From contig NZ_JAWDIC010000003.1 of assembly GCF_032464895.1 (NCBI RefSeq), forward strand, positions 1-64,000: DNA of 64,000 nt. Reading direction: 5' to 3'. Shown here in pieces: positions 166 through 62,386 of this stretch. Both the position numbers and the translations under genes were made by a program. This stretch comes from Phycicoccus sp. M110.8 (GTDB taxonomy: Bacteria; Actinomycetota; Actinomycetes; Actinomycetales; Dermatophilaceae). The notes beneath the pieces are model-generated. The model saw nothing but the letters and a program-made list of their open reading frames with translations, was not told the origin of the DNA and ran no database searches. Numbering within the stretch: the stretch's first letter is position 1; the number at the start of each line of letters is the position of its first letter.

Positions 166-2259
166 TCAGGCCGGCTGTGCAGCCGAGGCGGGCAGCCCCC
201 GCGAGGCCCGGATGACCTGCACGAACCGGCCCATGATCTCGGTCAGCCCGAAGTCCTTCGGGGTGAAGACCTCGGCCACCCCGAGCTCCTTCAGGGCGCG
301 CGCGTCGGCCTCCGGGATGATCCCGCCGACGATGACCGGCACGTCGCCCGCGCCGGCCCGCTGGAGTCCCTCGAGGATCTCCGGCACCAGCGCCATGTGC
401 GACCCGGACAGGATCGAGATGCCGACGAGGTGGACGTCCTCGGCGACGGCCGCTGCCACGATCTGCTCCGGCGTCAGCCGGATGCCCTGGTAGACGACCT
501 CGAACCCGGCGTCCCGGGCGCGGACGGCCACCTGCTCGGCCCCGTTGCTGTGCCCGTCCAGCCCCGGCTTGGCCACGAGCACCCGCAGCCGCTCCCCGAG
601 CTCCTCGCCGGTCCGGCGCACCTGCTCGCGCACCGCCCGCAGCTCGGCGCTGCCCGCCTCCCCGGTCACGCCCACGGAGCCGCTGACCCCCGTGGGGGCC
701 CGGAACTCGCCGAACACGTCGCGGAGCGCCTGCGCCCACTCCCCCGTGGTCACGTCGGCGCGCGCCGCCTCGAGCGAGGCGGCCATGAGGTTGGTGCCCG
801 TACGCGCGTCCTCGCGCAGGCGCGCCAGCGCGTCCGCCGCCCGCTCCCGGCGGCCCGGGTCGGCGTCGCGCTCCTCGCGCCACCGGCGGACCGCCTCCGC
901 GGCCTTGACCTCGACGTCGTGGTCGACGGTCTGGATGGCTGCGTCGAGGTCTGCGGTGAGCGGGTTGGGCTCGGTGGTCTCGAACTTGTTGACGCCGACG
1001 ACGACGTCCTCGCCGGACTCGATCCGCGCCCGGCGCAGCGAGTGCGACGCCACGAGCGCGGACTTCATGTAGCCGCTCTCCACCGCGGCCACCGCCCCGC
1101 CCATCTCCTGCACCCGGGCGATCTCCGCCCGCGCCCCCTCGAGCAGCTCCGCCACCTTGGCCTCGACCACGGTGGACCCGGTGAACAGGTCGTCGTACTC
1201 GAGCAGGTCGGACTCGTACGCGAGGACCTGCTGCATCCGCAGCGACCACTGCTGGTCCCACGGCCGCGGCAGCCCGAGGGCCTCGTTCCACGCCGGCAGC
1301 TGCACCGCCCGTGCCCTGGCGTCCTTGCTCAGCGTCACCGCGAGCATCTCCAGGACGATCCGCTGGACGTTGTTCTCCGGCTGGGCCTCGGTGAGCCCGA
1401 GGCTGTTGACCTGCACGCCGTACCGGAAGCGCCGCTGCTTCGGGTCCTGCACGCCGTACCGCTCCCGGGTGAGCTCGTCCCACAGCTCGACGAAGGCGCG
1501 CATCTTGCACATCTCCTCGACGAACCGCACCCCGGCGTTGACGAAGAAGGAGATCCGCGCCACGACCTCGCCGAACCGCTCCGGCGGGACCTGGCCCGAG
1601 TCGCGCACGGCGTCCAGGACCGCGATGGCGGTGCACATGGAGTACGCGATCTCCTGCACGGGGGTCGCCCCCGCCTCCTGCAGGTGGTAGCTGCAGATGT
1701 TGGTCGGGTTCCACTTCGGGATCTCGGCCACCGTGTAGGCGACCATGTCGGTGATCAGCCGCAGCGACGGCCCCGGCGCGAACACGTAGGTCCCGCGCGA
1801 CAGGTACTCCTTGATGATGTCGTTCTGCGTGGTCCCGGCGAGCGCACGCACGGCCTGCGCCGGGTCCCTGCCGTCGGCGACCGCCTGCTCCTCGGCCACG
1901 ACCTGGTACATCGCCAGCAGCCACATGGCGGTCGCGTTGATGGTCATCGAGGTGTTCATCCGGTCGAGCGGGATGGAGTCGAACAGCGCCCGCATGTCCC
2001 CCACGTGCGAGATCGGCACCCCGACCTTGCCGACCTCGCCCCGGGCGAGCGGGTGGTCGGGGTCGTACCCGGTCTGCGTGGGCAGGTCGAAGGCCACCGA
2101 CAGGCCGGTCTGCCCCTTGTCGAGGTTGCGGCGGTAGAGCGCGTTGCTCGCCGCGGCGCTGGAGTGGCCGGCATACGTGCGCATGACCCAGGGACGGTCG
2201 CGCTGCGGACGGGCGGGCGCGGCGGCGTCGGGCACGGGGACGTCGGTGGGCTCGGCCAT
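166..2259 (-). CDS. meaA: B12-dependent acyl-CoA mutase, MeaA type
   Basis: This is a 697-residue adenosylcobalamin-dependent carbon-skeleton mutase of the methylmalonyl-CoA mutase family. The N-terminal barrel shows the conserved run YAGHSSAAASNALYRR (residues 29-44) and FDLPTQTGYDPDHP (57-70). The C-terminal cobalamin domain has the base-off motif GLDGHSNG (566-573), where His570 would be the lower cobalt ligand. Both domains in one chain, and this particular substrate-domain sequence, resemble MeaA/ethylmalonyl-CoA mutase proteins of Streptomyces more than the two-subunit MutAB enzyme. Substrate (ethylmalonyl- versus methylmalonyl-CoA) cannot be settled by eye. I start at the ATG at 2259; upstream extension gives low-complexity sequence. 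A cobalamin adenosyltransferase gene about 1.9 kb away could supply the cofactor. Confidence 0.85.
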   Translation of the reverse strand: MAEPTDVPVPDAAAPARPQRDRPWVMRTYAGHSSAAASNALYRRNLDKGQTGLSVAFDLPTQTGYDPDHPLARGEVGKVGVPISHVGDMRALFDSIPLDRMNTSMTINATAMWLLAMYQVVAEEQAVADGRDPAQAVRALAGTTQNDIIKEYLSRGTYVFAPGPSLRLITDMVAYTVAEIPKWNPTNICSYHLQEAGATPVQEIAYSMCTAIAVLDAVRDSGQVPPERFGEVVARISFFVNAGVRFVEEMCKMRAFVELWDELTRERYGVQDPKQRRFRYGVQVNSLGLTEAQPENNVQRIVLEMLAVTLSKDARARAVQLPAWNEALGLPRPWDQQWSLRMQQVLAYESDLLEYDDLFTGSTVVEAKVAELLEGARAEIARVQEMGGAVAAVESGYMKSALVASHSLRRARIESGEDVVVGVNKFETTEPNPLTADLDAAIQTVDHDVEVKAAEAVRRWREERDADPGRRERAADALARLREDARTGTNLMAASLEAARADVTTGEWAQALRDVFGEFRAPTGVSGSVGVTGEAGSAELRAVREQVRRTGEELGERLRVLVAKPGLDGHSNGAEQVAVRARDAGFEVVYQGIRLTPEQIVAAAVAEDVHLVGISILSGSHMALVPEILEGLQRAGAGDVPVIVGGIIPEADARALKELGVAEVFTPKDFGLTEIMGRFVQVIRASRGLPASAAQPA

Positions 2260-2299
2260 GGGCCGAACGTACCCGCGGGTAGCGCGTGCAGGGAGGGGC

Positions 2300-2665: not shown

Positions 2666-2789
2666 GCGAACCCCCTCGTCCGTTGCAGACATTCACCCAC
2701 ACCGACGGGCGAACGGGGGTCCACGGTTGTCCCGGGCATGGTCAAGATCCGGTAACGGCCCGCACGACCGTCAGGCGGACCAGGGCAGG

Positions 2790-4079: not shown

Positions 4080-4145
4080 ACCCTACCGACGGCGCCCGCC
4101 CCGGCCCGTCGCGGAGCCGCTGCTCCCCCGGCATACGCTCCTCCC

Positions 4146-4772: not shown

Positions 4773-4808
4773 GCCGCGAGGCGGCGGCCACGCCGGCTGC
4801 GGCGGCCC

Positions 4809-5287: not shown

Positions 5288-5315
5288 GCGAACCGCCCTC
5301 CCTCGCAGCCCCGGG

Positions 5316-5582: not shown

Positions 5583-5664
5583 GGGATCCTCCGTTGGTAC
5601 GGCACGTGTCGTGCGACGTTCTCACTCTATCCACCCGGCGCCGGGGACCGGCGGCCGGTATGCC

Positions 5665-5692
5665 GTGGGGCCGGCCGAGCGGCCGGCCCCAC
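5665..5692. terminator. Perfect 12-bp hairpin between atpD and atpC
   Basis: Arms gtggggccggcc (5665-5676) and ggccggccccac (5681-5692) pair perfectly around a 4-base loop. The hairpin sits 23 bases after the atpD stop codon on the transcribed strand, with no T-run after it. It could be a partial terminator, an attenuator lowering epsilon relative to beta, or an RNA-stability element. A GTATGCCG word overlaps its left edge (5658-5665). Confidence 0.6.
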
Positions 5693-5714
5693 TGTGACCC
5701 GCTGTGGTGCTGGG

Positions 5715-7193
<1,479 letters not shown>

Positions 7194-8093: not shown

Positions 8094-8187
8094 ATCTGTG
8101 CCGCCTCTCCTTGGTTCTCGTTCGGGGGTGGTGTGCCGGTGGCCGGCGGTGCCGGGTGCGCACGAGGTGCGCACCCGGCATACCGCG

Positions 8188-10744: not shown

Positions 10745-11361
<617 letters not shown>

Positions 11362-14057: not shown

Positions 14058-15176
14058 TCAGGCGATCCGGCGGGGCCGGTGGCCGGGCGCGGACCAGCGG
14101 GGCAGCCAGACCGTGAGCACGCCGGCGACGACGACCGCCACGAGGACGCCGATCGCCGCGACGAGGGGGTCGGGCACCAGGACGAAGCTGACCGACCCCA
14201 GGGACGTCACCGCCGCCCACAGCCACAGCAGCAGGACCGCCCGCCGGTGCCCGTGCCCGATCTGCAGCATGCGGTGGTGCAGGTGCTGCTTGTCCGGCTG
14301 CCAGGGCCGCTCCCCCCGGCGCGTGCGGCGCACGACCGCGAGCAGGATGTCGACGAGCGGCAGCAGGATGATCGCCAGCGGCACGACGAGCGGCAGCAGG
14401 GTGGCCGCGACCGGGTTGGTGCTCACCTGGGACGGCGTGACGTTGCCCGTCGTCGAGATGGTCGCCGCGGCCAGCAGGAGCCCGAGCAGCAGGGCGCCGG
14501 AGTCCCCCATGAACAGCCGGGCCGGGTGGTAGTTGTGCGGCAGGAACCCCAGGCAGCAGCCGATGAGGGCTGCCGAGATCAGGGTCGCCGAGGAGAACAC
14601 GTTCGGCGGGTCGAAGGTGCGGGAGATGCCGTAGCTGTAGATGAAGAACGACGTCGCCGCGATGACGACCACCCCGGCCGCCAGGCCGTCGAGCCCGTCG
14701 ATGAAGTTGACGGCGTTGGTGAAGACGACGACGGCGAAGACGGTGAGCCCCACCATGATCGGCGTGGGCAGCACCGTCACCCCGCCGATCGGCAGCTGGA
14801 AGAGCTGGATGCCGCTGAACGCCATGATCCCTGCGGCGATCATCTGGCCGCCCATCTTGGTCAGCCAGTCCATCTCGCGGATGTCGTCGATCGCGCCGAT
14901 GAGGCACACGATCGCCGCGCCGTAGAGCACGCCCTTGAGCTCGGGCCCGAGGACGAAGACCTGGCCGAGGAACGGCAGGTGGCTCGCCGCAAGCATCGAC
15001 GCCGCGAAGCCCAGGAAGATCGCCACTCCCCCGAGGCGCGGGATCGGGGCCGAGTGCACGTCGCGGTCACGGACCGGCGTGAACGCCCCGAGGCGCACGG
15101 CGACGGCACGCAGCAGCGGCGTCGCGGCATACGTCACCACCGCGGCGACCATCAGGACCAGGAGGTACTCGCGCAC
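14058..15176 (-). CDS. wecA: Polyprenyl-phosphate GlcNAc-1-phosphate transferase
   Basis: This is a 372-residue integral membrane enzyme of the MraY/WecA/TagO family. It transfers a sugar-1-phosphate, most likely GlcNAc-1-P, to the lipid carrier to start cell-wall linker or surface-polymer synthesis. Key motifs: RDVHSAPIPRLGG near the N-terminus, DDIREMDWLTKMGGQ, and NAVNFIDGLDGLAAG with catalytic Asp residues; KQHLHHRML is the WecA/Rfe-type histidine motif. About ten membrane helices. The start is GTG at 15176. The equivalent position in M. tuberculosis is rfe (Rv1302), needed for arabinogalactan linkage, which also requires dTDP-rhamnose like that made by the rfb genes in this window. Confidence 0.92.
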   Translation of the reverse strand: MREYLLVLMVAAVVTYAATPLLRAVAVRLGAFTPVRDRDVHSAPIPRLGGVAIFLGFAASMLAASHLPFLGQVFVLGPELKGVLYGAAIVCLIGAIDDIREMDWLTKMGGQMIAAGIMAFSGIQLFQLPIGGVTVLPTPIMVGLTVFAVVVFTNAVNFIDGLDGLAAGVVVIAATSFFIYSYGISRTFDPPNVFSSATLISAALIGCCLGFLPHNYHPARLFMGDSGALLLGLLLAAATISTTGNVTPSQVSTNPVAATLLPLVVPLAIILLPLVDILLAVVRRTRRGERPWQPDKQHLHHRMLQIGHGHRRAVLLLWLWAAVTSLGSVSFVLVPDPLVAAIGVLVAVVVAGVLTVWLPRWSAPGHRPRRIA

Positions 15177-40766: not shown

Positions 40767-40922
40767 CGCGGGGGAAGGTGAGCCCTCGGCATACCGGGGC
40801 GAACGTGTCCGACGCCGCACGAAACGGGTCCATCCCACCGCAGCGGTGGGCAGGCGGCAGGGCTAGGCTGGGACGTATCCATGTGAGCGTCCGTGCCTAC
40901 CCGTGAAAGAGGCGTATCCGCC

Positions 40923-44987: not shown

Positions 44988-45062
44988 TGTTCAGGCCAGA
45001 GCGCGGGGGTATGCCGCGTGCCTGCCGCAAGTGCGCAGGTCACCTCCCGTAGCCTTGCAGCC

Positions 45063-45955: not shown

Positions 45956-48900
45956 TCAGAGTCCGCTGACTCGTTGTGGCACCGCGTACACCTGGCTGGT
46001 GCCGTTGCCGAGCTCACCGGAGTAGCTCGTGCCCCAGCACTGGACGGCCCCGGAACTGAGCCGGACGCATGCCGCCGAGGACCCGACCGACACCTCCACG
46101 GCAGAGCTGATACCCGTGAGCGTGCCGGGCGTGCTGCGACTCGAGATCGCCTCGTCGCCGAGCAGTCCGTTGTATGCCGTGCCCCAACACCGGACAGTGC
46201 CGTCGCTGAGCCTGGCACAGCTCGTCGACGATCCCAGTGACACCTGGGTGGCGGTCGTGATATCGGAAACCGTGACCGGGCCGACGTGCTCGACCTCATC
46301 CCCAGCGCCGAGCTGACCGTCGAAGTTGCTGCCCCAGCACTTCATCCCACCGGAGGACAGGACCGCACAGGCATAGTCGTCGCCGGCCGCGACCGACGTG
46401 ACGCCCGTGAGACCGGGCACCTTCTGGGGCGTGTTCGCCTGGTTCCCCGGGGCGGTGCCCAGCTGGCCTGCATCGTTGGAGCCCCAACACCAGACGTTGC
46501 CCCCGCTGACCGCACAGGTGAAGTACCCAGCAGCCGCCAGCGACGTCACGGAAGTCAGCCCCGGCACGGCGACAGGATCAGGCGAGTCCACGGCGTTGCC
46601 GTCCCCGAGCTGCCCGGCCCAGCCTGACCCCCAACAGCTCACGGTGCCACCGCTTCGCAGGACGCAGGCGTGCTCGCGCCCTGCCACGAGACGCTGCGCG
46701 TCGGTCACGCCCGGCACATCGACGGGGAGGGCGCTGAAGTCGCCGGTGGAGGTTCCAAGCTGGGAGTACCAGTTCTGCCCCCAGCAAGACACTGTTCCCG
46801 TGCCGCGGCGCGCGCACCTGAAGTTCGCACCCACGGCAACCTGGGTCGCGTTCGCGAGCCCGGACACCGTGACCGGGACCAGTCCGAGGGTGAAGCGGGT
46901 GCCGTTGCCGAGTTCACCGTTGCTGTTGGAACCCCAGCACTTCACGGTTCCGCCGACGACCGCACACGACCCCGAGTCGCCAGACCCGAGCGAGCTCGCG
47001 CCTGACCCGATACCAGTCACGGGTGACGGCGTCAGCGAGACCGCGCTCAGTCCATCGCCGAGCTGGCCGTCGTCGTCGCCGCCCCAGCACCGGACGGAGC
47101 CGCCGGTCACGACGACGCACGCATTGTGGTAGCCGACGGAGATCGTCCTGGCAATGGTCCCGCTGACGCCCGTCACAGCCGTGGGGCCCGCGGCGCCGTC
47201 GTACCAGTTCCCGTCGCCACGGGTCCCGCTGCCGGGCTGGCCCCAGCAGAGGGCACCCGTGGACGTCTGCGCGCAGGCTGAGGCGTTGGAGACACTGACA
47301 GAGCCGGCCCCGCTGACCCCCGACACCGCGGTCGGGGTCTCGCTGAATCCCGTGCCCCAGCAGGACACGGCGCCGTCAGCGGTCGCCGCACAGGAGGTCC
47401 CGTCGTCCGTCTCGAGGTCCGTTGCTCCCGACGCAAGCGCCGTGACGGGGACGAGGCTGTCGTCGAAGGTGCCGTTGCCCAGTTCACCGTTGCCGTTGGA
47501 ACCCCAGCACTTCACCGCTCCCGAAGGCCCGGACACACAGGTGGACGACGCTCCAGCGCTGACCTTGGTCACGCCGGACAGCCCGGCGACCTGGGTCGGC
47601 ACGAGGACGCGGGCGCTCAGGCTGCCGGTGCCGACCTGGCCCAGCTCGTTGAATCCCCAGCACCATACGGCCCCGCCGGCCGCGACGGCGCAGGCGTGCG
47701 CGCTGCCTGCCGACACCTGGGAGACCCCGCTGAGCGGCACCGGGACGGGAACGGTCCGGTCGGTGGTCGTGCCGTCGCCGAGCTGGCCGTAGAGATTGGC
47801 ACCCCAGCAGTACGCCTTGCCGTCCGAGGTGCGCGCACACGTGAAGCTGTCGCCCGCGGACACCTGGGTGACGTTGGCGAGGCCGACGACCTCGCGCGGG
47901 GTCGACGAGCTCTCAGCGGTCGTGCCCGTCCCGAGCTCACCGCTCCAGTTCGAGCCCCAGCACCTCACCTTGCCGCCCACCACTGCGCACGAGTGCGACT
48001 GCCCAACCGACACCGCTGTCGCGGTTGCCGGGGCGTTCACGAGCAGGTTGAGGCTACGAGTCGAAGCTCGCGCGCCGCTGTCGGTGACCTTCACGGTGAC
48101 CGTGACGCTGCCGGAGGCGGTGGGCGTCCCCGTGATCTGCCCGTCACCGGAGAGAGTGAGGCCTGGTGGAAGGGCGCCCGACGTCAGGGACCACGCGTAC
48201 GGCTTGACTCCGCCGGTGGCCGAGAGCCGTGTGTCATACCTCGAACCCACCGCTGCCGGGGGCACCGAGGTCGTGGTGACCGCCAATGGGGCAGGGGCGA
48301 CCGTCATGCTGTAGGCCTTGGTGGCTGCAGCCTGCCCGTCATCCGTGGCGCGCAGCGTGAAGGTGTATGTCCCAGGCGTCGTCGGGCTGCCCTCCAGCTG
48401 CCAGCAGCAGGTGTCGGTCTGGCTGAGGAACAGGCCGTCCGGAAGCGCACCAGCGGCCACGTCCCAGGACATCGGGGGGTTGCCTCCGCTGGAGACGAGC
48501 GAGGCGGTGTATGCCGCACCGGCCTGTCCGTTGGGCACCGAGGCCGTCGTGATCCCGACCGCCGTGCCGGTGGGGTACACCTTCACCGTGACCGGGGCTC
48601 CGCCACGAAGGCCTGTCGCATCGGCGACGCCGACGGTGAAGGCGTAGGTGCCCGCCTGGGTGGCGGTTCCCGACACCACGCCGGTGGCGCCGTTCACCGT
48701 GAGTCCAGGGGGAAGGGTGCCGGTGGTGGTCCACGCGTAGGGGCTCGTTCCCCAGGCTCGTGGCTTCAGAACGGTCGCAGCCAGGCCCACCGTGGTGTTC
48801 TGTGAGGGCGCCTCGACGGACAATTCGTTGACGAAGATGCGGTAGCTTCGCGACGCCGTTGCGCCGGTCGCGTCCTTGACCGCCGCGGTGAATTGCACCT

Positions 48901-51484
48901 CCGTGTATGTGTCAGGCGTCATGCCGGAGAGCTGGCCCGTGGTCGCGTCGAGCGCCATGCTGCTGGGAAGGGATCCGCTCGACACGGTCCATGTGTACGG
49001 ACTCGTCCCGCCGAAGGCGCTGAGAGAGGCGTCGTACTGGCTCGACACGAAGCTCCAGGCAAGCTCCTGGGTCTCGATGGTGAGCGGCGCGTCGACCACC
49101 TTGATCGTGTAGCTCTTGGTAGCGACGGTCCCACCGCAATCAGCGCGGACGGTGAACGACGTCGACCCCGCGGTGGTCGGGCGCCCGTCGAGGAGGAAAC
49201 CGTCACCGTCGTAGTCCAGGAGTATGCCGTTGGGCAGCGCACCCGAGCTTATGATCACGCGGCAGGCCCATTGCGGTGCGGCGCCGCCGGTGGTCTCGAT
49301 GCGTTGGAAGTACTTCTTTTCGACCGTGGCGTCCGGAAGCGTGGCAGGGCCGATGACGACGGGCGGCACGGTGACCGTCAGCGTGGCAGCGAGGGTCGCA
49401 GTCTGAGCGGTCGGGGAGGTGCTGTCCGTCACCTTGAGGGTGAAGGAGGTGGTACCGCCCGAGATGGGCGTTCCCGTGATGGTGCCCGTGTCACTCAGGG
49501 TCAGACCGGCCGGCAGGCCACTGTTCGGGGCAGACCACGTGTAGGGGCCGCTGCCCCCCTGTGCCTTCAGCGCGAGCGAGTACGGCTGGTTCAGAGTCGC
49601 GCTGGGCAGCTGGGCGCTGGTGGTGATCGACAGGCCTGCCTGGGCGATCTGCAGGCTCAACTGCTTGGTGGCCGTGCCGCCCCCGGTGACCTGGACCGTG
49701 AACGTGGCAGACCCCGCCGCCGTCGGTGTGCCGGACAGCACTCCGGCGGTGCTCAGGGTCAGTCCGCTCGGCACGGCCCCCTGGACGACAGTCCAGGTGT
49801 AGGGCTTCGTGCCGCCCGAGGCTGCAAGCGTCTGGCTGTAGGCAGTGGACACCGTTCCGCCCGGCAGGGACGCGGTGGTGACGCTCAGGGGGGCCGCGAC
49901 GACTGTGATCGTGAGCGTGGCCGACCCGATCTGCTGCGGCGTCGAGGCGTCCTTCGCCGTCACGGTGAAGGTGCTGGTCCCGGCCGCACTGGGGGTGCCC
50001 GCGATGATCCCTGCAGAGCTGAGCGACAGTCCAGCGGGAAGGGCGCCGCCGGCGAGGCTCCAGGTGTACGGCCCCAAACCCCCGCTCGCGGCAAGCGGCT
50101 GGCTGTACGCCGTCCCGGCGACCGCGCCGGGCATCGGGCTCGAGGTCGTCACTGTCACGGGCGACGACGTCGGCGGGGCCGCGAACCATCCAGCGACGTC
50201 CGTGAGCAGATCGACCGTGCCGGACTTGTTGAAGAGGCGCACCTTCCCGTTGCTCCCGACCTTCGCGATGACCAGGTTGGGGCGGATCTCACCCCTCGCG
50301 AGGTTGAGGTTGGAGGCATTCGGCTGCGGCTCACCTGCGGGATAGGCCGTGACGAAGGTCGTTGCCGTGGGCGCGACGCCGGTGACGTTGAGGACCACGG
50401 CGGCGACCCCGGTTGCAGGGATGCCGGCGCGCCCGTTGACCTGGACATCCACAGTCCCTCCGGGGCCAACGGCGCCGGTGCGCTGACCTGCTCCGTCCAC
50501 CGTCGCGCCTGTGGCGCGCGTGTCCAGGAGGCGGGCGGGGGCCAGCGGCGTGTACGACGACGAGGCGGGTATCCAGCCCGCGACGTCGGCCAGCAGGTCC
50601 ATCGATCCCGAGCCCACCGCGAAGGACACCTTTCCCCCTGACCCGAGCTTCGCAATGACCAGGTTGGGCTTGACCTCTCCTGCTGCAAGGTTGAGGTTGG
50701 AGGCGTTCGGCTTCGTGGAGCCGGTCGGCCACACCGTGGCGAACGTCGCGCGGGTCGGGGCGACACCGGTGACGTTCAGGACCACCGCGCCGACGCCGCT
50801 CGTCGGGATGCCGTATCTGCCAGTGATCTGCAGGTCACGGGTCGTCCCGCCCGCCACCGCGCCCGTGCGACTGCCCTGGCCGTCCACCGTGGCACCGGTG
50901 GACCGTGTGTCCATGAGGCGAGCTGGTGAGAGCGGGGTGTAGCTGGACCCCGTCGGGAAGTAGCCCGCCACGTCCGCGAGCACATCGCTCGACCCGGCGG
51001 AGACGAAGATCCCCACAGCACCGCCAGAACCGACCTTGACGGTCACGAGGTTGGGCGACACCTCCCCGGCGCGGACGTTGAGGTTGGAGGCGTTGGGCAC
51101 CTTCTCGCCCGCGGGAAAGGCCGTGACGTAGCCTGCCTTGGTCGGCAGCACCGCCGTGACGTTGAGCACGACTGCGCCGACCCCGCCGGCAGGGACACCT
51201 CCCCGACCCGTGACGGTGACGGTCTTGAACGTGCCGCCGGCGATGGCTCCGATCCGCGCGAACTTGCCGTCCACGGTCTGGCCGCTGAGCTTGCGGGTGT
51301 CCAACAACCGGGCAGGCGACAGGGGCACGTAACCCGAGGGCGCAGTGGTCGCTGCCCCTACCCCCGTAGGGGATGCTGAAGACATAGCGCTCGCGGGAGC
51401 GGCCACTACTGTGGCGAGTGCCGTCGCGGCGCAGGCCGCCCAGACAACCAGCGTGCCGAAACCACGTCGCGTCCGAGTACCCAC
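45956..51484 (-). CDS. Giant secreted protein: PARLLDTR, Ig-like and RCC1 repeats
   Basis: This is an 1842-residue exported protein. Signal peptide about 1-33 (ending APASA). Three repeats of about 125 residues follow (about 50-440), each with PLxPARLLDTR or [26 protein letters not shown] and DVAGWF/YF. Then eight Ig-like He_PIG repeats (about 440-1130, with PYTWS, LPAGLTLS and GTP motifs), then fourteen RCC1-type blades of about 50 residues to the end (CWGSNxxGQLGxG). Nearly every blade has a Cys pair, one in the CA or CV strand and one in CWG, likely forming disulfides outside the cell. Fourteen blades equal two seven-bladed propellers. No sorting motif or terminal membrane helix is present. 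The GTG start has AGGGGG upstream. Function is probably adhesion or surface binding. Confidence 0.88.
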   Translation of the reverse strand: MGTRTRRGFGTLVVWAACAATALATVVAAPASAMSSASPTGVGAATTAPSGYVPLSPARLLDTRKLSGQTVDGKFARIGAIAGGTFKTVTVTGRGGVPAGGVGAVVLNVTAVLPTKAGYVTAFPAGEKVPNASNLNVRAGEVSPNLVTVKVGSGGAVGIFVSAGSSDVLADVAGYFPTGSSYTPLSPARLMDTRSTGATVDGQGSRTGAVAGGTTRDLQITGRYGIPTSGVGAVVLNVTGVAPTRATFATVWPTGSTKPNASNLNLAAGEVKPNLVIAKLGSGGKVSFAVGSGSMDLLADVAGWIPASSSYTPLAPARLLDTRATGATVDGAGQRTGAVGPGGTVDVQVNGRAGIPATGVAAVVLNVTGVAPTATTFVTAYPAGEPQPNASNLNLARGEIRPNLVIAKVGSNGKVRLFNKSGTVDLLTDVAGWFAAPPTSSPVTVTTSSPMPGAVAGTAYSQPLAASGGLGPYTWSLAGGALPAGLSLSSAGIIAGTPSAAGTSTFTVTAKDASTPQQIGSATLTITVVAAPLSVTTASLPGGTVSTAYSQTLAASGGTKPYTWTVVQGAVPSGLTLSTAGVLSGTPTAAGSATFTVQVTGGGTATKQLSLQIAQAGLSITTSAQLPSATLNQPYSLALKAQGGSGPYTWSAPNSGLPAGLTLSDTGTITGTPISGGTTSFTLKVTDSTSPTAQTATLAATLTVTVPPVVIGPATLPDATVEKKYFQRIETTGGAAPQWACRVIISSGALPNGILLDYDGDGFLLDGRPTTAGSTSFTVRADCGGTVATKSYTIKVVDAPLTIETQELAWSFVSSQYDASLSAFGGTSPYTWTVSSGSLPSSMALDATTGQLSGMTPDTYTEVQFTAAVKDATGATASRSYRIFVNELSVEAPSQNTTVGLAATVLKPRAWGTSPYAWTTTGTLPPGLTVNGATGVVSGTATQAGTYAFTVGVADATGLRGGAPVTVKVYPTGTAVGITTASVPNGQAGAAYTASLVSSGGNPPMSWDVAAGALPDGLFLSQTDTCCWQLEGSPTTPGTYTFTLRATDDGQAAATKAYSMTVAPAPLAVTTTSVPPAAVGSRYDTRLSATGGVKPYAWSLTSGALPPGLTLSGDGQITGTPTASGSVTVTVKVTDSGARASTRSLNLLVNAPATATAVSVGQSHSCAVVGGKVRCWGSNWSGELGTGTTAESSSTPREVVGLANVTQVSAGDSFTCARTSDGKAYCWGANLYGQLGDGTTTDRTVPVPVPLSGVSQVSAGSAHACAVAAGGAVWCWGFNELGQVGTGSLSARVLVPTQVAGLSGVTKVSAGASSTCVSGPSGAVKCWGSNGNGELGNGTFDDSLVPVTALASGATDLETDDGTSCAATADGAVSCWGTGFSETPTAVSGVSGAGSVSVSNASACAQTSTGALCWGQPGSGTRGDGNWYDGAAGPTAVTGVSGTIARTISVGYHNACVVVTGGSVRCWGGDDDGQLGDGLSAVSLTPSPVTGIGSGASSLGSGDSGSCAVVGGTVKCWGSNSNGELGNGTRFTLGLVPVTVSGLANATQVAVGANFRCARRGTGTVSCWGQNWYSQLGTSTGDFSALPVDVPGVTDAQRLVAGREHACVLRSGGTVSCWGSGWAGQLGDGNAVDSPDPVAVPGLTSVTSLAAAGYFTCAVSGGNVWCWGSNDAGQLGTAPGNQANTPQKVPGLTGVTSVAAGDDYACAVLSSGGMKCWGSNFDGQLGAGDEVEHVGPVTVSDITTATQVSLGSSTSCARLSDGTVRCWGTAYNGLLGDEAISSRSTPGTLTGISSAVEVSVGSSAACVRLSSGAVQCWGTSYSGELGNGTSQVYAVPQRVSGL

Positions 51485-51973: not shown

Positions 51974-52945
51974 TCACGAGACGGTGAAGACGACCTTGCC
52001 GAACACCTCACCGTTCGCCATCCGCTCGAACCCGGTGCGCGCGTCCGCCAGCGGCAGGACGCTGTCCACCACCGGCTCGATCCCGCGCTGCACCACGAAC
52101 CGCGCCAGCCGTTCCAGCTCGAGACGGGTGCCCATGGTCGAGCCGACGACCCGCAGCTGCTTGAAGAAGATCTTGGTCAGCTCCGCCTTGGCCGGGGCAT
52201 CGCCCGAGGTGGCACCCGAGATCACGATCGTCCCGCCGGGGTTCAACGAGTTCACCGAGTGCGACCAGGTCGCCGCGCCGACGGTCTCCATCACCGCGTC
52301 GACCCGCTCGGGCAGCCGCTCGCGGTTCGCGAACGCCCGGTCTGCGCCGATCTCGAGCGCGCGCTGCGCCTTGGACTCGTCGCGCGAGGTGACCCACATG
52401 CGGTAGCCGGCGGCCTCGCCCAGCTGCACCAGGGCGGTGGCGACGCCGCCACCAGCGCCCTGTACGAGCACGGTCGCGCCGGGCGTGAGCCCGGCGTTCG
52501 TGAACAGCATCCGGTATGCCGTGAGCCACGCCGTGGACAGGCAGGCCGCGTGCTCCCAGGACAGGCCCTCGGGCTTGGGCACCAGGTTGTGCCGCGGCAG
52601 GGCGACCTTCTCGGCCAGCGTGCCGTCGTGAAGCTCGGACAACAGCGTGCGCCGGGGGTCGAGGGTCTCGTCGCCCTGCCAGCCGTCGCTGGGCACGACG
52701 GCGTGGACGATGACCTCGTTGCCGTCCTCGTCCACCCCTGCACCGTCGCAGCCGAGGATCATCGGCAGCCGGTCGGCGGACAGCCCGACGCCCTTGAGCG
52801 ACCAGACGTCGTGGTGGTTCAGGCCGGCGGTGCGCAGCGTGACGGTGGCCCATCCCTCGCGCGGACTGGGGTCGGGGCGCTCCCCCACCTCCAGGCCGGA
52901 CAGCGGGTCGTCGGCGGACTGGGACTTCGCGTAGACGGCGAGCAT
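51974..52945 (-). CDS. Zinc-independent MDR oxidoreductase (quinone reductase-like)
   Basis: This is a 323-residue medium-chain dehydrogenase/reductase. The GroES-like part has AGLNHHDVWSLKGVG and LGCDGAGVD; the NAD(P)-binding part has VLVQGAGGGVATALVQLGEAAG. The structural zinc Cys cluster and catalytic zinc ligands are absent, which points to a quinone oxidoreductase or enoyl reductase-like enzyme. The substrate is unknown. It is divergent from a nucleotidyltransferase gene with 58 bases between them. Confidence 0.88.
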   Translation of the reverse strand: MLAVYAKSQSADDPLSGLEVGERPDPSPREGWATVTLRTAGLNHHDVWSLKGVGLSADRLPMILGCDGAGVDEDGNEVIVHAVVPSDGWQGDETLDPRRTLLSELHDGTLAEKVALPRHNLVPKPEGLSWEHAACLSTAWLTAYRMLFTNAGLTPGATVLVQGAGGGVATALVQLGEAAGYRMWVTSRDESKAQRALEIGADRAFANRERLPERVDAVMETVGAATWSHSVNSLNPGGTIVISGATSGDAPAKAELTKIFFKQLRVVGSTMGTRLELERLARFVVQRGIEPVVDSVLPLADARTGFERMANGEVFGKVVFTVS

Positions 52946-53003: not shown

Positions 53004-53957
53004 GTGGGCAGCGGCACTCCCGGCGGTCAGGCCGAGCTCCGCCAGGACGAGGCGGTGCTCCTGGCCCACGCCCTGGTCGCACGGCTCGCGGAGCAGGTGG
53101 GCGCCCGGGCGCTCTTCATCAAGGGCCCTACCGCGGTGGCGCAGGGCGTGCGACCGCCGCGCGGCTCGAGCGACGTCGACGTCCTGGTCGAGCCGTCGGC
53201 CTTCCCAGCCATGTGCGCGGCGACGGAATCGGCCGGCTGGCAGCTGCGCACCCCTATCGGGACGCTGCGGTATGCCGGTGAGTTCGCCTTCGACCACTCC
53301 GCCCACTACATCCACACCGAGTGGCCCATCGACGTCGACATCCACTACAGCTTCCCGGGCTTCCTCGCCGAACCCGAGTCGGTCTTCGGGGCACTCTGGG
53401 CACGCCGGACCACCGTCGAGGTCGCGGGACGGGCTGTGCCCACGCCAGACCTACTGGGGCAGTCCCTGGTCGTGGGACTCCACGCCCTCAGAGACCCCGA
53501 GAAGCCGCAGTCGCAGGAGGATCTGGCGCACCTGGCGGCCGCCCTGGGGGATCTCGGAGCCGCCGACCGTGACGCGCTCCGAGACCTTGCTCGGGACGCG
53601 GGAGCCTCACGATCGGGCGCAGAAGTCCTCCGCCTGGCCGGCGTCGAGCCATACCCCTTGTCGCCCCGAGAAGCGCAGCGGGTCACCGACTGGGAGCTGC
53701 GACAGCAGGGCCACGGCATTGCGACGGCGTGGCTCTTCGAGCTCGGCCGCGCGCCGTGGCGTGATCGGCCCGTAGTCCTCCGCCGAGCGCTCTTCCCGCC
53801 GGCCGAGCACTTCGTCGCGTCCACCTCCGCTTCAGGACTGACCCGCGCGCAGCTCGCTGGTCTTCGCCTGCGCCGGTGGGGCCGAGGGGTCGTCGGCGTC
53901 CCCCACGCGCTCGGGGTGCTGCTTCGCCGCCGCCGGACCCGGCGTCCCACCGTTTAG
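53004..53957 (+). CDS. Nucleotidyltransferase-fold protein
   Basis: This is a 317-residue protein with a minimal nucleotidyltransferase core. FIKGPTAVAQGV is followed by RGSSDVDVLVEP (the GS-x-DxD metal-binding signature) and WPIDVDIHYSFPGF with a third acidic site. It matches the uncharacterised NTP_transf_5 (PF14907) group, often found near polysaccharide or peptide biosynthesis genes. The C-terminal 130 residues are helical, with a basic tail. The target is unknown. Confidence 0.78.
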   Translation: MGSGTPGGQAELRQDEAVLLAHALVARLAEQVGARALFIKGPTAVAQGVRPPRGSSDVDVLVEPSAFPAMCAATESAGWQLRTPIGTLRYAGEFAFDHSAHYIHTEWPIDVDIHYSFPGFLAEPESVFGALWARRTTVEVAGRAVPTPDLLGQSLVVGLHALRDPEKPQSQEDLAHLAAALGDLGAADRDALRDLARDAGASRSGAEVLRLAGVEPYPLSPREAQRVTDWELRQQGHGIATAWLFELGRAPWRDRPVVLRRALFPPAEHFVASTSASGLTRAQLAGLRLRRWGRGVVGVPHALGVLLRRRRTRRPTV

Positions 53958-54004: not shown

Positions 54005-54014
54005 CGGGACGAGG

Positions 54015-55394: not shown

Positions 55395-55471
55395 GAACCA
55401 ACACTAGGTGCGACCACCGACAGCGCCGCCTCGTCGAACGGTGCCCCCGGCTCCCCCAACGGAGCTGGCCG

Positions 55472-56356
55472 TCAGGCCTGGGGAGGTGCTGGCGGCTGCA
55501 GCGCGACGACATCTGGCAGGGCCTTGGCCAGGCTCTCGCGCCAGTTCGGCAGCGGTGCGATCCTCGCCATCCGCCACGCGTCGTGGCCAAGGACTGAGTA
55601 GGCCGGCCGCGGCGCGGGTACCGGGTACTGGTCGCTCGTGATTCCCTGCACGCGCTCGGGGTCGTGACCGAGCCCCTCGAACACCGCCCGCGCGAATCCG
55701 CACCACGTCGTCTCGCCCTGGCTCGTGGCGTGCCAGACGCCGTAGGGAGCCCGCTCGCCCACCAGCCGCAGGATCGCCTCGGCCACGTCCATCGTCCACG
55801 TGGGCTGGCCGCGCTGGTCGTCGACGACCGACAGGGTGTCGCGCTCGGCCGCCAGCCTCGCCATTGTCTTTACGAAGTTGGGGCCGCCACCGCCGTAGAG
55901 CCAGGCCGTGCGGACGATCCACGACTGCGGGCAGTGCGCCTCGACGGCCCACTCGCCCGCGGCCTTGGTGCGTCCGTAGGCCGACTTGGGATCGAGCGGT
56001 GCGTCCTCGGCATACGGCTCCTGGGCGTCGCCGGAGAAGACGTAGTCGGTGGAGACGTGCACCAGGCGTGTGCCGGTCTCGCGGCATGCGGCGGCGATGT
56101 TGGCCGCGCCCACCGCATTGACGGCGAACGCCTCCGCCTCGTGGGTCTCCGCGGCGTCGACCTTGGTGTAGGCAGCGCAGTTGACGACGACGTCGTGGCC
56201 GCGGACGGCCTCGCGGACGGCATCACGGTCGGTGACGTCGAGGTCGGAGCGCTCGAGAGCGGTCACGGACTTCTCGTCGACACCCGACACCGCCAGCGCC
56301 ACCTGGAGGTCGAGCCCGAGCTGGCCCCCGGCGCCGGTGACGGCCCAGCGGGTCAC
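55472..56356 (-). CDS. rfbD: dTDP-4-dehydrorhamnose reductase
   Basis: This is a 294-residue short-chain reductase for the last step of dTDP-L-rhamnose synthesis. It has NAD(P)H motif VTGAGGQLGLDL, then VVNCAAYTKVDAAE, and the catalytic YVFSGDA...YGRTKAAGE with Tyr and Lys. The GTG start at 56356 directly abuts the rfbB stop codon with no gap. Confidence 0.95.
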   Translation of the reverse strand: MTRWAVTGAGGQLGLDLQVALAVSGVDEKSVTALERSDLDVTDRDAVREAVRGHDVVVNCAAYTKVDAAETHEAEAFAVNAVGAANIAAACRETGTRLVHVSTDYVFSGDAQEPYAEDAPLDPKSAYGRTKAAGEWAVEAHCPQSWIVRTAWLYGGGGPNFVKTMARLAAERDTLSVVDDQRGQPTWTMDVAEAILRLVGERAPYGVWHATSQGETTWCGFARAVFEGLGHDPERVQGITSDQYPVPAPRPAYSVLGHDAWRMARIAPLPNWRESLAKALPDVVALQPPAPPQA

Positions 56357-57479
<1,123 letters not shown>

Positions 57480-57496
<17 letters not shown>

Positions 57497-58757
57497 ACCA
57501 GCCAGCCACGTCGGCGACGAGGTTGGTGCTGCCGCTGTTGTTGTAGAGGCGCACCTTCCCGCCGGTCCCCACCTTGACGATGACCAGGATCGGGCGCACC
57601 TCACCGGCCGAGAGGTTGAGGTTGGACGCGTTCGGCCGTGCCACCCCGGTCGGGTAGGCGGTGACGTACGTGGGGGTGGCAGCCAGGCCCGTGAGGTTCA
57701 GGACGACCGCGGACACCCCGCTGGCCGGTATGCCGTCCCGGCCGGTGACCTGGAGGTCCAGCACCGCCTTGGGCCCCAACGGTCCCTGGCCCGCCGCCTG
57801 CCCGTCGACCGTCGTGCCACCGGCCCGGGTGTCGAGGAGGCGCCCCGGCGTCATGGGGGTGTACGAGGACCCGGCTGCGGCGAACCAGCCGACGACGTCG
57901 GCGACCACGTGGATCGACCCGGAGTTGTTGTAGAAGGACACCTTCCCGCCCGTGCCCACCGTCGCGATGACCAGGTTGGGCCGCACCTCCCCCGTCCTGA
58001 GGTTGAGGTTCGAGGCGCTGGGACGCGGCTGGCCGGTGGGCCAGACGGTGAGGAAGGTGGCAGCCGTGGGAGCCACGCCGGTCACGTTGAGGACCACGGC
58101 GCCGACGCCGGAGGCCGGGATGCCGTCGCGACCCCCGACCTGCAGGGTCCGCTCCGACCCGGCAGCAAGGGCACCACCTGCCTGCGCCTGCCCGTCGACC
58201 GTCGTACCAGCGGGGCGGGTGTCCATGAGACGGGCCGGCAGCAGGCTGTGGAAGCTGGCCTGCGGCGGGTCACCGGGGTCTGGGAAGTACCCCACCACGT
58301 CGACGACGACGTGGCTCGATCCGGCTCCCACCGTGATGGCGACGGATCCGGCGTTGCCTTGGGCGACGACGACGAGGTTCGAGGTGACCTCGCCCTTGCG
58401 CACGTTGAGGTTGGAGGCGTTCGGCGGCGTGCAGCTGAAGCAGCTCGCGGGCCACACCGTCAGGTAGGTGTCCCGGCTGGGGGCGACGGCCGTGACGTTG
58501 AGCGCCACGGCGTTGAACTGGAAGGTGTCCACCCCTCCGCGGGTGGTCACGGCGAGGATGGCGGTGCCGGTGATGGCTCCGGTGCCCGCATAGCGTCCGT
58601 CGACCGTGGTGCCACCGGGACGGGTGTCCATGAGCCGAGCCGGCGTGAGCGGGATGTAACCGGTCGGTTCCGGCGCAGCTTGTGCAACGGCCGGGTTCAG
58701 GAGTGCCGCGGCCAGGACGACGACCGCCGCGGCGCGCGTGAAGAGAGAACGGGCCAT
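57480..58757 (-). CDS. Secreted protein of three PARLLDTR-type repeats
   Basis: This is a 425-residue exported protein. The signal peptide (about 1-28) ends AQAAPE. Three repeats of about 130 residues follow, each with PARLMDTR or [38 protein letters not shown] and DVVGWF or DVAGWF. These are the same module as the N-terminal part of the giant RCC1 protein at 45956. The first repeat carries an extra CFSC loop. The start at 58757 has GGAGGAGAC directly upstream. It sits between the two halves of the dTDP-rhamnose gene set, suggesting a surface or polysaccharide-binding role. I know no named family for the module. Confidence 0.8.
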
Positions 58758-58899
58758 GTCTCCTCCAAGGGCCTCGAAACTGTGCGCCCCTCCGCACGCC
58801 AGATTCTGGGCCCCGGTGCCGCCGCCGGGCAGCCACAATCTGCGTAATCACATCGGCCGACCCCGGGTCGTCCCCCGTCACCCGGTAACGTCAGCCTCC

Positions 58900-59784
58900 A
58901 TGAAGGGCATCATCCTGGCCGGCGGCTCGGGCACCCGGCTGCACCCGATCACCCTCGGGATCAGCAAGCAGCTCATGCCCATCTACGACAAGCCGATGAT
59001 CTACTACCCGCTCTCCACGCTGATGATGGCGGGCATCCGCGAGGTCCTGGTCATCACGACCCCGGATGACGCGGACCAGTTCCGCCGCCTCCTCGGGGAC
59101 GGCTCGCAGTGGGGCATCGAGCTCTCGTATGCCGTGCAGCCGGCGCCCGAGGGCCTGGCTCAGGCGTTCGTCATCGGCGCGGACTTCATCGGCTCGGACT
59201 CGGTCGCCCTCGTGCTCGGGGACAATATCTTCTACGGCACCGGCCTTGGCACGGCCCTTCGCGGCAACACCGACGTCACCGGCGGCCACGTGTTCGCTTA
59301 CCACGTCAACGAGCCCTCGGCCTACGGCGTGGTGGAGTTCGCCGAGGACGGACGGGTGCTCTCGATCGAGGAGAAGCCGGCGAAGCCGAAGAGCTCGTAT
59401 GCCGTGCCCGGCCTGTACTTCTACGACAACGACGTGGTGCAGATCGCCCGCGAGCTCGAGCCCAGCGAGCGTGGCGAGCTGGAGATCACCGGCGTCAACA
59501 ACGCCTACCTGGAGCGCGGCACCCTCACCGTCACCGTGCTGGAGCGCGGCACCGCGTGGCTCGACACGGGCACGTTCGAGGGGCTGATGGACGCCTCGCA
59601 GTTCGTGCACGTGGTGCAGCAGCGGCAGGGACACAAGATCGGCTGCGTCGAGGAGATCGCCTGGCGCAACGGCTGGCTCTCGGACGACGAGCTCGGCCGG
59701 CTCGCCGAGTCGCTCGCCAAGAGCGGGTACGGCGGATACCTGCACGGGCTGCTCGCCGAGCGCCGGCGGGGAGTGGACGGCTGA
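58900..59784 (+). CDS. rfbA: Glucose-1-phosphate thymidylyltransferase
   Basis: This is a 294-residue enzyme making dTDP-glucose, the first step of dTDP-L-rhamnose synthesis. It has nucleotide-binding [33 protein letters not shown] and [18 protein letters not shown]. It contains two copies of the GTATGCCG word (59127 and 59397), both in the codon pair TAT-GCC. The ATG at 58900 is the only family-like start. Confidence 0.96.
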
Positions 59785-60386: not shown

Positions 60387-60550
60387 TGGGCACCCCGGAC
60401 GATTAGCGTGCGGAACGGCGTTGCTGCTGGTCACAGCCTCGAAGGCGCGTCAACATGGCCTCAAGGGACTTGGTGAGGTGGTCAGGTCCGCGGCTTTTGA
60501 CCTGTAAACTTCCAAAGGTTTGGTCAGGCAACAACACGGAGGACGGGCCG

Positions 60551-62386
60551 ATGCCCCCCAGTAGACGTCAGCATCGCGAACGCCTTACACGCTGGACGTG
60601 GGCCCTCATCGACTCCTCGGCATGGCTTGTCGCGGTATTCCTTGCGGCTTGGCTTCGCTACGACCTGGACCTCGACCTCACAATCACATCCGCCATGGCG
60701 TGGTTCTCAGTGGGCGCGATCCTCGCCCAAGTGCTGTTCGGGACCGTCTTCGGCCCGTATGCCGTAGGGCACGAGCGTGGATCGTTCGAGGAGACCTACG
60801 ACGTCGGCCGCACCGTGGCCCTGACCACACTCGTGCTGCTCACCCTGGTCTTCGCCTTTCACCTCAGCCCAATTCCACGCAGCGTTCCGTTCACTGCCCC
60901 GGCTTTCGCCATGATCGGCATGTTTGCCGCTCGCTTCATCATCCGGTCCTGGAGAGCTCGCCAAGCGCTCCTCGCAAAGGAGGAGCAGCGAGCGGTCATC
61001 TTCGGGGCAGGAGAGGCTGGGCGACGACTAACACGGAGCCTGATCCGGGACGCTGGAAGCGGCTACGCGCCTGTGGCTCTCCTTGACGATGACCGCGCTA
61101 AGGCACGTCTTCGCTTCGAAGGCGTCCGCGTGCGCGGGACGCGCAGCGACATGGCGGCCGTGGCGGAGAAGCACAGCGCGCAGGTCCTCATCATCGCCCT
61201 TCCGCTCGCGGAGGCCCCTACCATCCGTGAACTCACCAGCCTCGGGGAGGACGCCGGACTCGAGGTGCTCACCCTGCCGCCCATCAAGGACATCATCGGA
61301 GGACGGCCGACGGCCGGTCACCTGCGCAATGTCGACGTCGCCGACCTGCTCGGGCGTCGCCCCGTTAATCTGGACACCGCCGTGATCGCCGACCAGATCG
61401 CCGGCAAGAGCATCCTCGTGACGGGGGCGGGGGGCTCGATCGGATCGGAGCTGTGCCGGCAGATCGCCCGCTTCGGGCCGGCCAAGCTCTACATGCTCGA
61501 CCGCGACGAGTCCGGCCTGCAGTCCACGCAGATGAGCCTGGACGGGCACGGCCTGCTCAACACCGAGACGGTCGTCCTCGCCGACATCCGAGACGTCGCC
61601 CGCATGCGCGAGGTGTTCACCCAGACCCGTCCCGACATCGTCTTCCACGCGGCCGCTCTCAAGCACCTGCCCCTGCTCGAAGCCAACCCGATGGAGGCGT
61701 GGAAGAGCAACGTTCTAGGCACCCACAACGTGCTCCAAGCGGCCGCCGAAGTCGGCGTCGGCACGTTCGTCAACATCTCCACCGACAAGGCGGCAAATCC
61801 CACCTGCGTGCTTGGCTACAGCAAGCGGATCGCCGAGCGCCTCACTGCTGACTTCGCGCGCCGGGAGCCTGGTCGGTACGTCTCGGTCCGCTTCGGCAAT
61901 GTGCTGGGGTCCCGTGGATCTGTAGTCCACGCGTTCACGGCCCAGATCGAGCGGGGCGGACCGATCACAGTCACCCATCCCGATGTCGAGCGCTATTTCA
62001 TGCTCATCCCCGAGGCCTGCCAGCTTGTCCTTGAGGCAGCATCGATCGGCTCGGACGGCGAGGTCATGGTCCTTGACATGGGCCAACAGGTGAGGATCGT
62101 TGAGGTGGCCAAGACGCTCATCCGTATGAGCGGGCGTCGCGACATCGAGATCACCTACACCGGCCTGCGCCCTGGCGAGAAGCTGGGCGAAGAGCTTTTC
62201 TCACCCGACGAAGGTCGTCGTCAAACGGCCCACCCCCTGGTCAGCAGCGTCGACGTCCCCGCCCTAGCCGCAGCCCACGTCTCGACGATCGTCCACCCTG
62301 ACGCTCCAAGCGCGGTGGAGTGGATGCGCAAGGAAGCGTTCGTGTCGGTTCGTCCCCGTGGGGAAAGCGTCGGCGTCGACCGGTGA
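60551..62386 (+). CDS. CapD-like nucleotide-sugar epimerase/dehydratase
   Basis: This is a 611-residue membrane protein of the CapD/FlaA1 polysaccharide group. About four N-terminal helices (about 14-130), then a CoA-binding-like fold with FGAGEAGRRLTRSL, then the catalytic extended SDR domain with VTGAGGSIGSELCRQIA, NISTDKAANPTCVLGYSKRIAE and RFGNVLGSRGSV. It converts a UDP-HexNAc, typically by 4,6-dehydration with or without 5-epimerisation, for a capsule or glycan. The Met-Lys-type motif of the SDR is SKR in place of YxxxK-only proteins. The ATG at 60551 has GGAGG eight bases upstream. Codon use is less GC-rich than in the core genes. Confidence 0.9.
   Translation: MPPSRRQHRERLTRWTWALIDSSAWLVAVFLAAWLRYDLDLDLTITSAMAWFSVGAILAQVLFGTVFGPYAVGHERGSFEETYDVGRTVALTTLVLLTLVFAFHLSPIPRSVPFTAPAFAMIGMFAARFIIRSWRARQALLAKEEQRAVIFGAGEAGRRLTRSLIRDAGSGYAPVALLDDDRAKARLRFEGVRVRGTRSDMAAVAEKHSAQVLIIALPLAEAPTIRELTSLGEDAGLEVLTLPPIKDIIGGRPTAGHLRNVDVADLLGRRPVNLDTAVIADQIAGKSILVTGAGGSIGSELCRQIARFGPAKLYMLDRDESGLQSTQMSLDGHGLLNTETVVLADIRDVARMREVFTQTRPDIVFHAAALKHLPLLEANPMEAWKSNVLGTHNVLQAAAEVGVGTFVNISTDKAANPTCVLGYSKRIAERLTADFARREPGRYVSVRFGNVLGSRGSVVHAFTAQIERGGPITVTHPDVERYFMLIPEACQLVLEAASIGSDGEVMVLDMGQQVRIVEVAKTLIRMSGRRDIEITYTGLRPGEKLGEELFSPDEGRRQTAHPLVSSVDVPALAAAHVSTIVHPDAPSAVEWMRKEAFVSVRPRGESVGVDR

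Follow-up and report, generated by a model that had tools for sequence, protein, structure and literature searches.

Occurrence of the word in the window and in the genome

We analyzed a window of 64,000 nucleotides from Phycicoccus sp. M110.8 (positions 1 to 64000 of contig C3; the genome, G000, has 4,117,279 bases in 7 contigs), in which the 8-bp word CGGCATAC is repeated far beyond chance. The word is a DNA-level signal, and it probably acts as a DNA uptake sequence (DUS). It is non-palindromic (its reverse complement is GTATGCCG) and occurs in 37 exact copies spanning 2169..60764, 19 in one orientation and 18 in the other, while 100 dinucleotide-preserving shuffles of the window gave a mean of 1.07 copies and a maximum of 4. 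An earlier note, made from the sequence alone, had claimed about 37 copies with this span and these orientations, against about two by chance; the exact count agrees with it.

All copies in the window are exact matches. Those on the plus strand lie at 2169..2176, 4129..4136, 8176..8183, 11157..11164, 15125..15132, 18090..18097, 19229..19236, 21011..21018, 22156..22163, 28026..28033, 29442..29449, 35167..35174, 36503..36510, 39280..39287, 40787..40794, 45418..45425, 56008..56015, and 57238..57245. The minus-strand copies are found at 5658..5665, 15244..15251, 17740..17747, 23967..23974, 29790..29797, 32295..32302 (within a lysA-type gene at 31056-32492, PF02784/PF00278), 37523..37530, 40629..40636, 42808..42815, 45009..45016, 46172..46179, 48509..48516, 49222..49229, 52514..52521, 53270..53277, 57728..57735, 59127..59134, 59397..59404, and 60757..60764. 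The copy at 57728..57735 provides an internal control, as the earlier note had pointed out: the protein at 57480 contains the same 10-residue peptide twice, once with the Ile codon ATC and once with ATA, and it is ATA that creates the word. The last 3.2 kb of the window (64% GC) indeed lack the word, but this says little by itself about newly gained DNA because only ca. 2 copies are expected there.

Genome-wide, there are 2,476 copies (1,242 + 1,234), one per 1.7 kb on average, versus 135 (61 + 74) of the reversed word. Within a sample of 464 kb (the window plus the first 400 kb of contig C1), CGGCATAC was the most over-represented 8-mer under Markov models of orders 2, 3, and 4, with 293 copies seen versus 8.1, 14.7, and 79 expected, respectively; the order-4 expectation is inflated because the word's own copies feed the 5-mer counts. 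The abundance is thus far from the Markov expectation beyond the window as well. In the 400 kb of C1, 135 copies were forward and 121 were reverse, the two being nearly balanced within every 50 kb, and the word is spread along the chromosome with a coefficient of variation (CV) of the spacing of 0.83. As for a restriction-modification target, which we also considered, the word is enriched and not avoided.

The signal is a sharp word, 8 bp in length. A longer motif was rejected, as the flanks are nearly uninformative beyond codon phase (C at -2 in 193 of 293 copies, A at -1 in 87 of 293). Taken together, the 24 one-mismatch variants were seen 309 times versus 337 expected (order 2, 464 kb). Three of them were mildly high in the same sample, namely CGGCATTC (14 versus 3 to 5), CGGCATCC (73 versus 43 to 47), and CGGCGTAC (61 versus 36 to 47), and these are the same words as the dialects or possible dialects of other genomes described below.

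The codons provide the most direct evidence that the signal acts at the DNA level. Genes were called with a home-made codon-usage caller (coding fraction of 0.71 in the window and 0.77 in C1), and since it misses genes, word counts in non-coding DNA are upper bounds. In the 464 kb, 210 of the 293 copies fell within called genes, with the word on the sense strand in 83 cases and on the antisense strand in 127; by these calls, the density on C1 was 0.60 per kb in coding and 0.77 per kb in non-coding DNA. Most coding copies specify Tyr-Ala or Ala-Tyr. In the context G-TAY-GCC-G, the Tyr codon TAT was used in 121 of 148 cases versus 40 of 2,168 elsewhere in called genes, so that 121 of all 161 TAT codons fall in the word. 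Similarly, the Ala codon GCA was used in 65 of 102 cases in CG-GCN-TAC versus 2.5 to 6.4% in other contexts, and the Ile codon ATA was used in 18 of 64 cases in C-GGC-ATH-C versus 10 of 3,312 elsewhere. By our own arithmetic, the odds of TAT shift ca. 240-fold in the word context, a scaled bias of ca. 5.5. The rare-codon bias is therefore stronger than had been claimed from the window, and rare codons occur mostly within the word instead of being used equally away from it.

Distribution, dialects, and turnover of the word among relatives

We surveyed 147 relatives, own genome included, and considered a genome as word positive if it had at least 400 copies and more than twice the count of the reversed word, or a dialect. 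The word was enriched in 10 of 10 congeners and patchy across the Intrasporangiaceae/Dermatophilaceae-type family (f1), where 55 of 89 genomes carried it or a variant. Among the 53 genera of the family, 31 were positive, 21 negative, and 1 mixed, and the negative genomes G029, G030, G057, and G075 showed slight excesses under the cut. In the other families of the order, none of 272 genomes passed the cut (highest count of 177, with a control of 135); some very large genomes outside the family had a small excess (e.g., G202, with 131 versus 45 in 9.4 Mb). Among the matches listed, named loci of 12 to 22 kb each contained the word (3 to 22 copies) in Knoellia remsis, Phycicoccus elongatus, Intrasporangium oryzae, Humibacillus xanthopallidus, Terrabacter, Arsenicicoccus, and Ornithinimicrobium, and no word was found in those of Janibacter indicus, Intrasporangium flavum, an uncultured Phycicoccus, and Dermacoccus abyssi. 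Mapped on a quickly built tree of ComEC (63 rows), the word label changed 8 times versus a mean of 21 in shuffles.

No similar word stood out outside the family in loci L077 to L134 (58 loci; L104 is from Ornithinimicrobium). Other apparent words were discarded as local repeats (L114, L132, and L148) or as mostly one cluster (L144). These repeats are of some interest in their own right. In L144:6899-7328 (G029), repeats of CTCGACCGG / ACGCCGGT are clustered near 7 kb in both orientations; L148:12149-12228 (G046) has long G and C tracts near each other in one short stretch; and L132:1855-2194 (Actinokineospora) has two tandem arrays of an 8-bp unit with TGCGGCACT.

Within the family, the word comes in dialects, each variant having been counted in 80 of the 89 genomes. 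G022 had 3,135 copies of CGGCATTC and 1,025 of CGGCATAC, and G060 had 730 and 2,311, respectively. CGGCATCC reached 3,816 copies in G026, 3,838 in G073, and 3,949 in G036, while G053 and G087 combined ca. 2,100 to 2,200 copies of it with ca. 1,200 of CGGCATAC each. The enriched codon changed with the dialect. For the C dialect (G036 and G026), the Asp codon GAT was found in 28 of 41 cases in context versus 101 of 2,602 elsewhere; for the T dialect (G022), the Asn codon AAT was found in 9 of 9 versus 36 of 234 and the Tyr codon TAT in 9 of 10 versus 56 of 258. In the contexts of these dialects, our own genome used GAT in 4 of 94 and AAT in 5 of 34 cases, and 13 word-negative genomes used TAT in 0 of 46 cases in the word context. 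As in known uptake sequences, the dialects are in line with phylogeny: G026 and G036 are sisters on the ComEC tree, and so are G022 and G060 (81% support).

CGGCGTAC may be a fourth dialect. In G057, it was found 55 times in 80 kb versus 9.4 expected (ca. six-fold), with the Ala codon GCG in 21 of 22 cases in CG-GCN-TAC versus 19 of 38 otherwise; the bias was weaker in G049 (15 of 20 versus 17 of 37). Further GTACG words are also high in both G057 (L152, L187-L189) and G049 (L149, L190-L192). Separately, in genus g2, CGGCATCC had 1,336 copies in G011 versus 614 in G062, possibly a weak or decaying dialect.

Inverted pairs are another feature shared with known uptake sequences, for which those of Neisseriaceae have been described at terminators (PMC3630211, in part). 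Neighbor pairs within 80 bp numbered 12 in the 464 kb versus 13 expected, and 6 of the 12 had the arrangement GTATGCCG...CGGCATAC, 24 to 30 bp apart. All six occupy gaps between called genes, with folding energies of -22 to -38 kcal/mol; five are perfect hairpins 10 to 44 bp past the end of a called gene, and the sixth is an imperfect hairpin between divergent genes. The pattern GTATGCCG N6-20 CGGCATAC was found 23 times in our own genome and 2 to 195 times in each of 31 word-positive genomes examined (of 55), with the maximum in G052, but 0 times in 8 of 8 word-negative genomes examined. With the reversed word as a control, 37 genomes had none and G017 and G031 had 1 each. Compared with what density predicts by our own arithmetic, pairs were in excess in our own genome (23 versus ca. 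6), in G001 (90 versus 14), and in G052 (195 versus 10).

We then considered the fate of single sites. Our own sites were aligned in the 10 congeners (19 to 26 sites each, at 80 to 83% identity). In 8 of the 10, 21 to 41% of the sites were kept versus 29 to 39% for anagram 8-mers, so that deep site conservation was rejected; values were higher in G001 (16 of 23, 70%), the word-richest congener, and in G004 (14 of 26, 54%). Sites turn over while density holds, as expected of population-level drive and not of fixed functional sites. Comparing codons at shared sites in words with those outside, GCA was kept in 23 of 59 versus 32 of 272 cases and TAT in 42 of 68 versus 8 of 10 (small numbers), and ATA was kept in 0 of 14 (also small numbers), a mixed picture. 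Between 13 and 51 kb of the window, there were 0.66 words per kb where 8 to 10 congeners align versus 0.47 where 0 to 2 do (few words).

Competence genes and large insertions

The host carries transformation machinery, including ComEC, a ComEA-like motif, and Tad ATPases, as would the host of an uptake sequence. ComEC was detected in 79 of 80 family genomes, its presence alone being uninformative as a marker, and a ComEA-type motif was found in the open reading frame (ORF) adjoining comEC in 39 of 42 loci. A type IVa pilus was rejected as the uptake machine, since PilM (PF11104) was found in 4 of 80 genomes without a link to the word. The presence of any Tad ATPase (PF00437) was likewise rejected as a marker, with 80 of 80 genomes among the matches listed and no simple link to the word. 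The Tad ATPases form several classes.

The class of our own tadA-C (G000:C1:604074-605282, adjoining a T2SSF protein) had matches at an E value of 1e-60 or better in 69 of 80 genomes, and of the 11 genomes without it, 10 were word negative and 1 was word positive (G056). Counting broken copies as present, tadA-C was found in 46 of 47 word-positive versus 23 of 33 word-negative genomes (Fisher P value of 0.0004) and, taking the first genome per genus, in 26 of 27 versus 13 of 20 (P value of 0.007). Partial matches in G027, G031 (on a 3.3-kb contig), and G044 (without the first 75 residues) were also counted as present. Two genes of the machinery, comEC of G004 (G004:C1:1517076-1517881) and tadA-B of G007 (G007:C10:355493-356547), each appear broken into two adjacent frames, owing to either an assembly error or a frameshift.

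Seven genomes, including our own, have a Tad ATPase gene or comEC interrupted by large insertions, and all but G058 are word positive. The tadA-C gene is split by 70.6 kb in G003, 78.6 kb in G009, and 11.0 kb in G017; comEC is split by 40.4 kb in G088 (L225-L227) and 27.7 kb in G058 (L153+L228), which belong to two genera; and tadA-B is split by 25.4 kb in G006 and, outside the window, by 57.8 kb in our own genome (G000:C1:2163157-2220997; L197 from 11157, L235-L237). A large serine recombinase lies at the junction in five of the seven (G003, G017, G088, G009, and G058), Pfam confirmed except in G058, and no serine recombinase motif was recognized in the insertions of G000 and G006. The ends of the G000 insertion appear by eye to be similar and inverted. 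The element in G003 (G003:C1:2353520-2424097; L215-L218) contains homologues of DpdA, B, D, F, H, and J, a DNA-modification defense system.

Some breaks recur at the same site in different species. At the Walker A motif of tadA-C (residues 198 to 206), we found the insertion of G017, the first of the two insertions of G009 (G009:C11:595537-674170; L219-L223), and the truncation of G027; at residue 230, we found those of G003 and the second of G009. A second recombinase-like ORF in G009 ends ca. 20 bp from the far end of its first insertion. The tadA-C of G027 stops at Walker A, and the rest of it is missing from the 20 kb retrieved, so that an eighth gene may be interrupted here. By comparison, tadA-A was in one piece in the 16 of 16 genomes having it (19 examined), and lysA was in one piece in 11 of 11 genomes of the genus.

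The insertions are poor in the word, as is expected of an uptake sequence in recently acquired DNA. In six of them (G058 was left out because the host lacks the word), there were 20 words versus 127 expected at host density, i.e., ca. 6-fold fewer, while their flanks had 39 versus 43.5 expected; the insertion of our own genome alone had 4 versus ca. 35. Such scarcity would not be expected from a process acting on all resident DNA, unless a slow one. The claim of the earlier note that newly gained DNA is poor in the word is thus upheld by these insertions and not by the end of the window.

Interpretation and comparison with known systems

With a probability of roughly three in four, we consider CGGCATAC to be a DNA uptake sequence, used by actinobacteria capable of natural transformation and tied to transformation by a Tad pilus. 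Like uptake sequences, it is a short word found genome-wide in hundreds to thousands of copies, far over composition, in both orientations and in coding as well as non-coding DNA. Word-bearing DNA would be bound at the cell surface by a receptor, which is probably one of the minor pilins or DNA-binding subunits of the Tad (Flp) pilus; the pilus would draw the DNA in, and ComEA and ComEC would pass one strand into the cell, where it would recombine. Word-bearing alleles would replace word-less ones because they are taken up and recombined more often, and the word would build up wherever proteins tolerate it, close to saturation of the synonymous chances. Drift in receptor specificity would make the word drift and give rise to dialects, a one-letter shift being the trace expected from a drifting DNA-binding receptor, and once competence is lost, the word would decay.

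Several observations weigh against this reading. It supposes competence, sequence-specific uptake, a receptor, and transformation-driven turnover all together. The near-background retention of sites in 8 of 10 congeners means that single sites do not look essential. ComEA/ComEC and Tad ATPases also occur in word-negative genomes (tadA-C in 23 of 33), so the machinery alone is no predictor of the word; the rarity of PilM implies that the known DUS machinery is not the one used; G056 is word positive without a tadA-C match; and the tadA-C statistics ignore kinship beyond one vote per genus. With its own tadA-B interrupted, the strain may not be competent now. The insertion controls cover two genes, tadA-A and lysA, and the insertions are richer in words than composition alone predicts (20 versus 6). 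Uptake words of Haemophilus show an excess of one-mismatch variants, unlike the overall pattern found here, although the fact that four fifths of the synonymous TAT chances are already used may also account for the missing halo. Finally, no T-run follows any of the six hairpins in the 464 kb, and pairs are near chance in G014 (8 versus 10 expected), G056 (4), and G088 (2, with 2 to 3 expected for both), so hairpin pairing is not universal.

Among the alternatives, the one that survives best, improbable as we judge it, is a site for chromosome organization or a nucleoid protein, kept by selection in many orientation-free copies per chromosome and changing into dialects with the specificity of the protein. 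The chromosome-wide spread, the lack of local orientation bias, the dialects, and the scarcity in insertions would follow from it too, but whole genera lack the word, which is unusual for an essential organizer, sites turn over at about the background rate, and the hairpin pairs and the insertions in tadA and comEC would have to be coincidence. Somewhat less probable still is a word similar to the highly iterated palindrome HIP1 (GCGATCGC) of cyanobacteria, maintained on resident DNA through a methyltransferase or through a bias of repair or gene conversion, and playing no part in uptake. It shares with the present word the short and sharp form, the high density, the balanced orientation, and the lack of an overall mismatch halo, and the earlier note had left the choice between an uptake and a HIP1-like sequence undecided. 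The dialect shifts at one position, the hairpin pairs, the insertions in Tad and comEC genes, and the 6-fold scarcity in insertions, by which such a process could not be quick on all resident DNA, now favor uptake, and HIP1 is palindromic while CGGCATAC is not.

The hairpins could also suggest a regulatory or transcription-termination element dispersed through selection for such structures, five of six being just past a gene end and G052 having 195. We regard this as very unlikely, given that the 23 pairs of our own genome stand among 2,476 copies, most of which, by the sample, lie within called genes, and that the pairs of three genomes are near chance and the six hairpins lack a T-run. Even less credible is an oriented signal for recombination (Chi-like) or segregation (like KOPS, the FtsK-orienting polar sequences): CGGCATAC would fit as an 8-bp word scattered over the chromosome, but Chi and KOPS have a strong skew by replichore, and the locally balanced orientation (19/18 in the window and 135/121 in the 400 kb) counts against them, as the earlier note had already judged. 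An effect of codon usage, tRNA, or amino acids, suggested by the predominance of Tyr-Ala and Ala-Tyr, is refuted for practical purposes, since the genome avoids these codons except where they form part of the exact 8-mer, and the enriched codon switches with the dialect.

Returning to the uptake sequence, the word is most likely a password for recognizing and taking up DNA of the bacterium's own kind. We find it rather likely that it represents an independent, further system of self-DNA recognition, the first in Gram-positives as far as the literature searched shows, that works through a Tad and not a type IVa pilus, with no fewer than three dialects (A, T, or C at position 7) and probably a fourth (CGGCGTAC), that has undergone several losses or gains within a single family, and that is attacked by mobile elements integrating in Tad ATPase and comEC genes. 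If true, this actinomycetotal case, with its dialects, losses, and insertions in uptake genes, would make it possible to test anew why genomes come to carry such words, for which mating preference, receptor bias, and defense against foreign DNA are competing reasons. It would also direct attention to Tad pili as carriers of a DNA receptor and allow predictions as to which members of the group are transformable and by which tagged DNA.

Two Gram-negative families, Neisseriaceae and Pasteurellaceae, are known for sequence-specific uptake guided by a genomic word. Among the matches listed, in mainly open literature without preprints, we found no report of an uptake sequence in Actinobacteria or Gram-positives, and among 5.39 million open full texts, CGGCATAC or its complement turned up in a single paper, which is unrelated. 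HIP1 is an extremely over-represented octamer found in coding and non-coding DNA whose function is debated; CGGCATAC resembles it in all these traits of occurrence but differs in lacking the palindrome, in having dialects, and in being poor in large insertions. From KOPS and Chi, it differs by the absence of a replichore orientation bias. The uptake signal sequences (USS) of Pasteurellaceae have a 9-bp core plus T-rich flanks, while the flanks of CGGCATAC carry little information. Both occur in hundreds to thousands of copies with one in-frame orientation commoner than the other (PMC2346458, in part), as with the sense and antisense copies here, and Pasteurellaceae have a family-wide history of competence (PMC1626085, in part).

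The actinobacterium Micrococcus luteus carries a comEA/comEC locus and depends for transformation on both of its two tad clusters (PMC4322843, in part), and the family analyzed here has ComEA-ComEC and several classes of Tad ATPase; the term "uptake sequence" is absent from the main text of that paper. Mobile elements that break competence genes are known for comK, comYC, comFA, and comEC (PMC4774983, in part). The insertions described here, with a large serine recombinase at the junction in five of seven, resemble them in comEC and differ in also hitting tadA of the Tad pilus, which is not among the targets given in the part of that source available.

The closest likeness is to the DUS of Neisseriaceae, also an over-represented word within and between genes, with dialects that follow phylogeny, two of which may occur in one genome, and with inverted pairs at terminators (PMC3630211, in part). 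The present system differs in belonging to Actinomycetota, in having another word (8 bp), in the absence of a PilM match from 76 of 80 genomes, and in that a putative Tad pilus would do the work. By its genomic pattern, CGGCATAC would work like a DUS, with formal membership of the class resting on uptake, which we predict here.

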